A stretch of 64,000 nt of DNA from Candidatus Meridianibacter frigidus (GTDB lineage Bacteria; Vulcanimicrobiota; Vulcanimicrobiia; Vulcanimicrobiales; Vulcanimicrobiaceae): contig QHBJ01000005.1 in assembly GCA_003243975.1 (NCBI GenBank), forward strand, positions 124,001 to 188,000, written 5' to 3'. Numbering within the stretch: the stretch's first letter is position 1; each line of letters starts with the position of its first letter. The notes beneath the pieces were generated by a model. The model worked only from the letters and a program-made list of their open reading frames with translations, was not told the DNA's origin and made no database searches. The translations under genes and the position numbers were made by a program. This document shows, piece after piece, positions 53,178-55,464 of the stretch.

Positions 53178-54215
53178 TTACGCAACTTCGACGCCGGTAC
53201 CGACGGTGATGGATCCGATGCGCGCAGCCGGTCCGCACGCGGACAGCTCGCGTTGAAGTGCGTCGGCTTTTTCGGGAGCGACGGCGATTAACAAGCCGCC
53301 GGAAGTCTGCGCGTCGGAGAGGGCTACGCGCAAATCGGGCGGTACGCTGGGGGAAAATTCAGTGAAGCCCGCGTGCAGATCGACGTTCTCTTGCGTGCCG
53401 CCGGCGATTGCGCCCTTTCCAATGAGTTCGCGCACGCCCTCGAAGAGAGGGATGTCAGCAGATTCAATCATAACACGGACGCTCGAAGCGCGCGCCGTTT
53501 CGTGCGCGTGACCGAGAAGCCCGTAGCCCGTGATGTCGGTGCATGCATGAACGCCGACGTGCATCATGACCTTTGAGGCCGCGGCATTGAGCGTGATCAT
53601 CGAATCGATTGCCGGTTGCATGGCCGCTGCGTCGATCATGCCACCTTTGAGTGCGGTTGCGAGAACGCCCGTCCCGAGTTGCTTCGTAAGGAGTAAGATG
53701 TCCCCGGGGCGGGCATTCGCGTTCGTAACGAACGCACCGGGGTGCACGGTTCCCGTGGCGGCCATCCCGTACTTCGGCTCGGGGTCTTTGATTGAGTGAC
53801 CGCCCAAAATAGAAGCCCCTGCTTGCTTTGCTACTTCAGCGCCTCCTTGCAGAATGCGCTGAAGAACCTCGAGGGGCAGCGTGTCGCTAGGAAATGCGAC
53901 GATGTTCAGCGCCGAAATCGGCGTTGCGCCCATCGCGTACAGATCTGAAAAACTGTTGGCTGCCGCGATGCGTCCGAAATCGTACGGATCGTCCACAATG
54001 GGCGTGAAAAAATCAACGGTCTGCACGATGGCCAGATCGTCGCTCACCCTGTAGATGCCGGCGTCGTCGTTGGTGCCGAAGTCAACCAGCACGTTGTCGC
54101 TCTGTAGCGTTGGCAAGTGACGCAAGACTTGCGCCAGCTCGGCGGAGCCGAGTTTACTCGCTCAACCCGCGCAGGACGAAAACTCCGTTAACCGGATCGG
54201 ATCGAGGGACTGCAT
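53178..54215 (-). CDS. selD: Selenide, water dikinase SelD with selenocysteine at the active site (UGA codon 18)
   Basis: Makes selenophosphate from selenide and ATP. The family core is TVDFFTPIVDDPYDFGRIAA, LGGHSIKDPEPKYGMA, and DITGYGLLGHAHE. The uninterrupted frame begins at a TTG (54125) and lacks the catalytic Cys/Sec and Lys. Extending through an in-frame TGA (54164-54162) to ATG 54215 adds MQSLDPIRLTEFSSCAG-U-ASKLG. This is the canonical SelD N-terminus, with U where other members have Cys or Sec and the active Lys three residues later. Total length is 345, as in the family. A perfect 6-bp hairpin follows nine bases after the TGA, a candidate SECIS. Start codon shares CATG with the divergent aminotransferase. 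Confidence 0.88.
54138..54152 (-). promoter_or_regulatory. Candidate bacterial SECIS hairpin in selD
   Basis: CTCGGC-TCC-GCCGAG, a perfect stem nine bases after the UGA of selD. Position is near the range for bacterial SECIS elements. The tight three-base loop lacks the usual early G unless the stem is shortened, so the exact fold is uncertain. Confidence 0.45.
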
Positions 54216-55464
54216 GCCGCTTACTTTAACATCCACGGTAGTGTCACCCCGACCTCTGCTGTTTCTTCCCGGTCCGGTCTGCGTGGCGGACTCGGTGCTG
54301 CAAGCGATGACGCGTCCGCTCATCGACCACCGCGGACCCGAATTTTCGCGCTTGCTGCAATCGATCGAAGCGCAGCTACAGCCAATTTTCGGAACGGCGG
54401 GCAGCATCTTCATCTTGGGCTCCTCAGGCACCGGGGGATTGGAATCGGCTGTGGCCAGCTTGTTCTCGCCCGGCGACCGCGTTTTGGCTGCCCCGGTAGG
54501 CGTGTTCGGGCAGCGACTTGTCGACATGGCGCGCACCTATGGCTGCCGGGTTGACGTCATGGAAACGAAACCCGGATTCGCAGTGGACGCGCAGCAGCTT
54601 GCCGAGCGCCTCAAACGGGATACAGCGCGCAGCATTCGGGGCATCTTGCTCACGCATAACGAAACCTCGACGGGGGTCGCGAACGACATGCGGCTGCTTG
54701 CGGAGGCGATCGGCGAACACCCTGCGTACACGGTGGTTGATTCGGTCAGCGGTATGGGCGCGAGCGATTTTCGCATGCACGAGTGGCGCCTCGATGCGGT
54801 CATAACGGCTTCTCAGAAAGTTTTTGCCGCGCCGCCCGGAGTCGCGATGGTGGCCCTTAGCGCGCGAGCTGCACAGCGGGCCGTCGCGGAACAGGTTCCA
54901 ATATTTTACTTCAACCTTGGCAAGGCAAAGCAGTTTGCGGAGCTTGGACAGACCCCATGGACGCCGCCGATCTCGACTTGTTTTGCCCTGGACGCCGCGC
55001 TGGAAGCGTATCATGCGCAAGGCGCGCAGATCGTTTGGCATCGCCTTGCAAGCTATGCGAGCGCCATTCGTGCCGCCGCCGCCGCGCTTGGTTTAGAGAA
55101 CTTCTCGCAGCCCGGCGCGCATTCGAACACGGTGGTGGCAATTAAGGCGCCGGCGGGACTTGACGTCGCGGAACTGTTGCGCGGTTTGCGCGAAGAGCGC
55201 GGGATCGTGCTCTCCGGCGGGCAGAAAGAACTCAAAGGTGCCATCTTCCGGATCGGTACCATGGGCAGCATCTCGCAGACCGATGTCATGGCGATGCTGG
55301 GGGCACTCGAGATCGCGCTGTGGCAACAGAAGCTGCAGGTACGCAGCGGCGCGGGGGTGCAAGCGGCGCTTCAGGTTTTCTTGGAGGACGATGTTGCTAA
55401 ACTCGGTGACGGTTCAGCAACGGACGAGCAAACGGACGTGCAAACCATGGCAACGCCGCGCTGA
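54214..55464 (+). CDS. Class V PLP aminotransferase (alanine/serine--glyoxylate aminotransferase-like)
   Basis: 416 residues. N-terminus PRPLLFLPGPVCVAD, DHRGPEFSRLLQ, ILGSSGTGGLESAVASL, HNETSTGVANDM, the cofactor Asp in TVVDSVSGMGASDF and the PLP lysine in ITASQKVFAAPPGVA are those of AGT/SPT enzymes. ATG 54214 has GAGGG five bases upstream. The last 30 residues (DGSATDEQTDVQ) are non-family and overlap convergent cvpA by 68 bases. Substrate not certain; it is not a SelA or a NifS-type desulfurase by motif. Confidence 0.88.
   Translation: MPLTLTSTVVSPRPLLFLPGPVCVADSVLQAMTRPLIDHRGPEFSRLLQSIEAQLQPIFGTAGSIFILGSSGTGGLESAVASLFSPGDRVLAAPVGVFGQRLVDMARTYGCRVDVMETKPGFAVDAQQLAERLKRDTARSIRGILLTHNETSTGVANDMRLLAEAIGEHPAYTVVDSVSGMGASDFRMHEWRLDAVITASQKVFAAPPGVAMVALSARAAQRAVAEQVPIFYFNLGKAKQFAELGQTPWTPPISTCFALDAALEAYHAQGAQIVWHRLASYASAIRAAAAALGLENFSQPGAHSNTVVAIKAPAGLDVAELLRGLREERGIVLSGGQKELKGAIFRIGTMGSISQTDVMAMLGALEIALWQQKLQVRSGAGVQAALQVFLEDDVAKLGDGSATDEQTDVQTMATPR

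Follow-up and report, generated by a model that had tools for sequence, protein, structure and literature searches.

Genes for selenophosphate synthetase (SelD) that carry a selenocysteine (Sec) codon are known from other bacteria (TIGR00476; Mariotti et al. 2015, PMC4561486; Zhang et al. 2006, PMC1794560), and the gene described here resembles them in the enzyme, in the position of the Sec, in having an intragenic bacterial selenocysteine insertion sequence (bSECIS) and in being accompanied by selA, selB and selC. It is unlike them in its lineage, Candidatus Eremiobacterota, for which the relevant papers of the literature searched hold no mention of selenoproteins or selenocysteine. This is a little-studied soil phylum. 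The gene lies in a 64,000-nucleotide stretch of contig QHBJ01000005.1 of Candidatus Meridianibacter frigidus, referred to below as the window, and the nearest kin of its product are from Candidatus Eremiobacterota. Although a Sec-type selD is a known kind of gene and ordinary in kind, its analysis confirms the Sec system and further Sec genes of the lineage, corrects the assignment of the SECIS and yields a testable idea that two hairpins act together.

The selD frame and its in-frame TGA

The gene most probably encodes a SelD whose catalytic residue is selenocysteine; from the sequence comparisons below we put the probability of this reading at about 0.96. The two features on which it depends are:

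53178..54215 (including the stop codon), minus strand: selD, selenide water dikinase (TIGR00476 at 380 bits, and alignments to 3u0o and 2yye)
54162..54164, minus strand: the TGA codon of Sec18 (alignment to E. coli SelD Cys17; a TGA or Cys codon in all informative relatives)

Read on the minus strand from 54215 to 53178, the frame translates as MQSLDPIRLTEFSSCAG-TGA-ASKLGSAELAQVLRHLP... and is 345 residues long when the TGA is counted as a residue. The TIGR00476 match covers residues 8-316 of the protein and exceeds the cut-off of 125 bits threefold; since it runs across the TGA at such a score, it reflects more than chance. The N- and C-terminal AIRS domains (PF00586 and PF02769) are both above cut-off. 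In the 3u0o and 2yye alignments the TGA lies opposite the catalytic cysteine, Cys17 in E. coli SelD and its equivalent in Aquifex SelD, and Lys21, three residues further on, corresponds to E. coli Lys20. An earlier, sequence-only reading of this DNA had proposed just this arrangement, an in-frame TGA at the Cys/Sec position of a 345-residue SelD with a lysine three residues later, and the alignment of the extended protein bears it out. It had also foreseen that an automatic call would truncate the protein; with translation table 11 the longest selD open reading frame is indeed 315 amino acids, starts from a TTG at 54125 and lacks both U18 and K21. A truncation that standard gene calling would introduce is thereby put right.

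The aligned catalytic codon was compared in a wider sample of 80 selD loci from many phyla and in a lineage sample of 30 loci, the window's own genome included. It is TGA in 47 and TGC or TGT in 33 of the wider sample, with no other codon seen; in the lineage sample there are 22 TGA and 7 Cys codons, the one other locus being uninformative as its match starts downstream of the site. Of 60 lineage genomes, counting the window's own together with 59 relatives, 54 have a strong SelD match, and in 41 of these, again including the window's own, the match contains exactly one in-frame TGA. The sequence-only reading would have been refuted by an unconserved N-terminus; the N-terminus around the TGA is conserved in the relatives, with TGA or Cys throughout. 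Sec-SelD is thus common across the lineage. One relative (G008) bears two SelD-like genes around 45 kb apart on a single contig (C12), each with one in-frame TGA.

Selenocysteine machinery and further Sec genes of the genome

The genome to which the window belongs is 1.95 Mb in 43 contigs and 96% complete. The genes found in it that bear on the use of Sec are:

contig C7, 7474-8775: selA (494 bits)
contig C7, 8781-10637: selB, directly behind selA (277 bits including the neighbouring segment)
contig C7, at 21610: tRNA-Sec with anticodon TCA (73.7 bits)
contig C4, stretch L131, 1439-1441: Sec TGA of an FdnG-like formate dehydrogenase, with an iron-sulfur subunit gene next downstream
contig C9, 7089-7433 (stretch L139): PrxQ/BCP-type peroxiredoxin with an in-frame TGA, motif DDTPGUTNEASQF
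contig C43, 8928-9176 (stretch L135): AhpD-like (CMD) protein with a TGA at the second Cys of CxxC, motif NDCDYUMTSH

The earlier inference that the organism decodes UGA as Sec, with selA, selB and selC elsewhere in the genome, therefore stands: all three are present on contig C7, and fdhA, which it had named as an example of a further Sec gene to look for, carries a Sec TGA. The last lies within the motif ENQARIUHSSTVPG of the formate dehydrogenase alpha chain (FdhA), a site like that of E. coli FdnG, whose TGA is codon 196. A search with the formate dehydrogenase C-terminal domain alone misses this TGA; as that domain lies downstream of the codon, the enzyme seemed at first to be free of Sec. 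The TGA of the PrxQ-type protein is at what we take to be the position of the peroxidatic Cys. Selenoprotein families are already known among peroxiredoxins and among distant homologues of AhpD (PMC1794560). Sec genes were sought by family searches and in a few genome stretches, so that three besides selD is a lower bound; this adds Candidatus Eremiobacterota, with four Sec genes or more, to the users of Sec.

Only a single SelD gene was found in the genome, a second, weak match being a distant relative. As this gene is of the Sec type, the enzyme required for making Sec would itself require Sec. Family searches of the genome found neither a selenouridine synthase (TIGR03167) nor a SelW-like protein (PF10262), and the former result makes it appear that SelD works here for Sec synthesis. 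Among the relatives, selA was also not found in any of the four SelD-less genomes that are more than 90% complete (G011, G017, G021 and G030). One relative of 96% completeness (G052) has a TGA-type selD and yet selA was not found in it, which may reflect an assembly gap.

Two hairpins behind the UGA

Two hairpins follow the TGA in the window:

54138..54152, minus strand: H1, 6 bp, loop UCC, spacing 15; the hairpin noticed in the sequence-only reading, proposed here as a folded spacer
54118..54136, minus strand: H2, 8 bp stem, loop GUC at 54128-54126, spacing 33 nt from the TGA

The published bSECIS model, which requires a G in the loop and a spacing of 16-37, was used as the yardstick for a SECIS. 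H2, UGGCGCAA-GUC-UUGCGUCA at -8.5 kcal/mol, satisfies every rule of this model; its core, GCAAGUCUUGC, matches the fdnG SECIS core of E. coli letter for letter, and it shares the GU in the loop with both fdnG and fdhF. Comparison of the window hairpins with these E. coli elements rests on their place and not on energy, since the hairpin scanner permits no bulges and the E. coli elements, which have one bulge, score only around -2. Hairpins that satisfy the rules are also present in all three of the other Sec genes of the genome, at spacings of 16-20 (16 for the PrxQ-type gene and 20 for the AhpD-like gene). The loop in selD begins much further on, after 33 bases, compared to 18-19 in fdnG and fdhF, and, unlike in those genes, a second hairpin stands between the UGA and the SECIS. 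Rfam gave no matching SECIS family at the selD site, only matches at chance level.

The existence of TGA-type and Cys-type selD provides a clean natural control for which hairpin recodes the UGA. All seven core pairs of H2 are formed in 44 of the 69 TGA-type genes, whereas not one of the 40 Cys-type genes has the complete set; a hairpin that satisfies the published rules, mostly at a spacing of 32-33, is found in 60/69 of the former and 6/40 of the latter. Compared to synonymous codon shuffles, TGA genes have 6.01 H2 pairs where 4.20 are expected, whereas Cys genes have 3.00 against 2.84. The facing Gln and Leu codons of H2 covary synonymously (CAG-CTG 28, CAA-TTG 10, CAG-TTG 9, CAA-CTG 1), and sliding the partner strand by 1-3 bases lowers the pairing from 0.85 to 0.28-0.55. 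It is clear that RNA hairpins in TGA-type selD are under selection, and H2 is very probably the SelB-binding SECIS.

H1 (CTCGGC-TCC-GCCGAG) starts nine bases past the TGA. The sequence-only reading was right that a perfect CTCGGC/GCCGAG hairpin occurs there, but H1 is probably not the SelB-binding SECIS, as its loop lacks a G and its spacing of 15 is too near the UGA for the published rules. All six of its pairs are formed in 18 of 24 TGA genes from Eremiobacterota, 9 of 14 from Gemmatimonadota and 2 of 31 from other phyla; outside the first two groups a shifted GGUC/GACC proximal form is common, a form that was chosen after the data had been seen. Within +1 to +26, 60/69 TGA genes have a stem of 4 bp or longer, where synonymous shuffles predict 32.4, and 12/40 Cys genes have one, where 14.5 are predicted. 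As the excess is confined to TGA genes, a hairpin in the stretch from the UGA to H2 also appears to be selected there. H1 is 15 bases long, and once it is folded the effective spacing of H2 would be 33-15 = 18, inside the 16-20 range of the three further Sec genes. We tentatively suggest that H1 is a folded spacer, though the odds lie somewhat against it; the same caution extends to the wider idea that Sec-type selD in several phyla might have a two-hairpin SECIS, in which a distal, SelB-binding hairpin at 32-33 is brought by a selected proximal spacer to an effective 18-20.

Several observations weigh against this interpretation of the hairpins. At 33, the spacing of H2 is not far short of the maximum of 37 that the published model allows. 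Wilcoxon and Fisher tests were used on sequences that are related, and this kinship makes their p-values overstate independence, although the contrast between TGA and Cys genes is nonetheless large. Furthermore, several TGA genes with a good H2 have either no H1 or a different one, so H1 is not strictly required; 28 TGA genes have neither H1 nor the shifted form.

Alternatively, Sec could be inserted with H1 as the SelB-binding SECIS and H2 secondary. The loop of H1, at +16, is nearer to the distance seen in E. coli fdhF and fdnG (GGUC/AGUC at around +19), and its outermost pair varies between C-G, G-C and A-T along with Leu/Glu, Val/Asp and Ile/Asp changes. We consider this unlikely, since among TGA genes of phyla other than Eremiobacterota and Gemmatimonadota all pairs of H1 are formed in only 2/31, compared to 16/31 for the seven of H2.

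Explanations that dispense with Sec are far less probable still. The standard code interrupts the frame at the TGA, and the codon might be a genuine stop, in a selD decaying to a pseudogene, or a sequencing error for TGC or TGT; but the same codon is TGA at 22 lineage and 47 wider loci, a conservation across phyla that refutes this, the frame is otherwise intact, the genome has selA, selB and selC, and the SECIS hairpins are conserved only in TGA genes. Equally improbable is that the TTG at 54125 is the true start and the N-terminal extension accidental. The 315-residue product would retain both AIRS domains, but it would lack the catalytic Sec/Cys and Lys, and the extension aligns to the SelD N-terminus, including E. 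coli Cys17 and Lys20, and is conserved in relatives.

Proposed route of Sec insertion and the divergent neighbour

On the reading of selD as a Sec gene with H2 as its SECIS, H1 would fold up its 15 bases and leave H2 effectively 18 bases from the UGA, like the elements of the genome's other Sec genes. SelB with Sec-tRNA-Sec would bind H2 of the selD mRNA and deliver Sec at the UGA, so that the ribosome reads through to give the full 345-residue enzyme. The predicted activity of SelD is to convert selenide and ATP to selenophosphate, which SelA would use to form the Sec of FdhA, the peroxiredoxin, the AhpD-like protein and SelD itself.

One further gene adjoins selD:

54214-55464, plus strand: class V aminotransferase gene, divergent from selD

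The two genes share the CATG at 54213-54216, where the probable start codon of one overlaps that of the other on the opposite strand. Assignment of the neighbour as a selenocysteine lyase/cysteine desulfurase was set aside; it is closest to serine/aspartate-glyoxylate aminotransferases and below every NCBIfam cut-off. A class V aminotransferase gene adjoins selD in 20/30 lineage loci, the window's own included, and in four Eremiobacterota loci of the wider sample.
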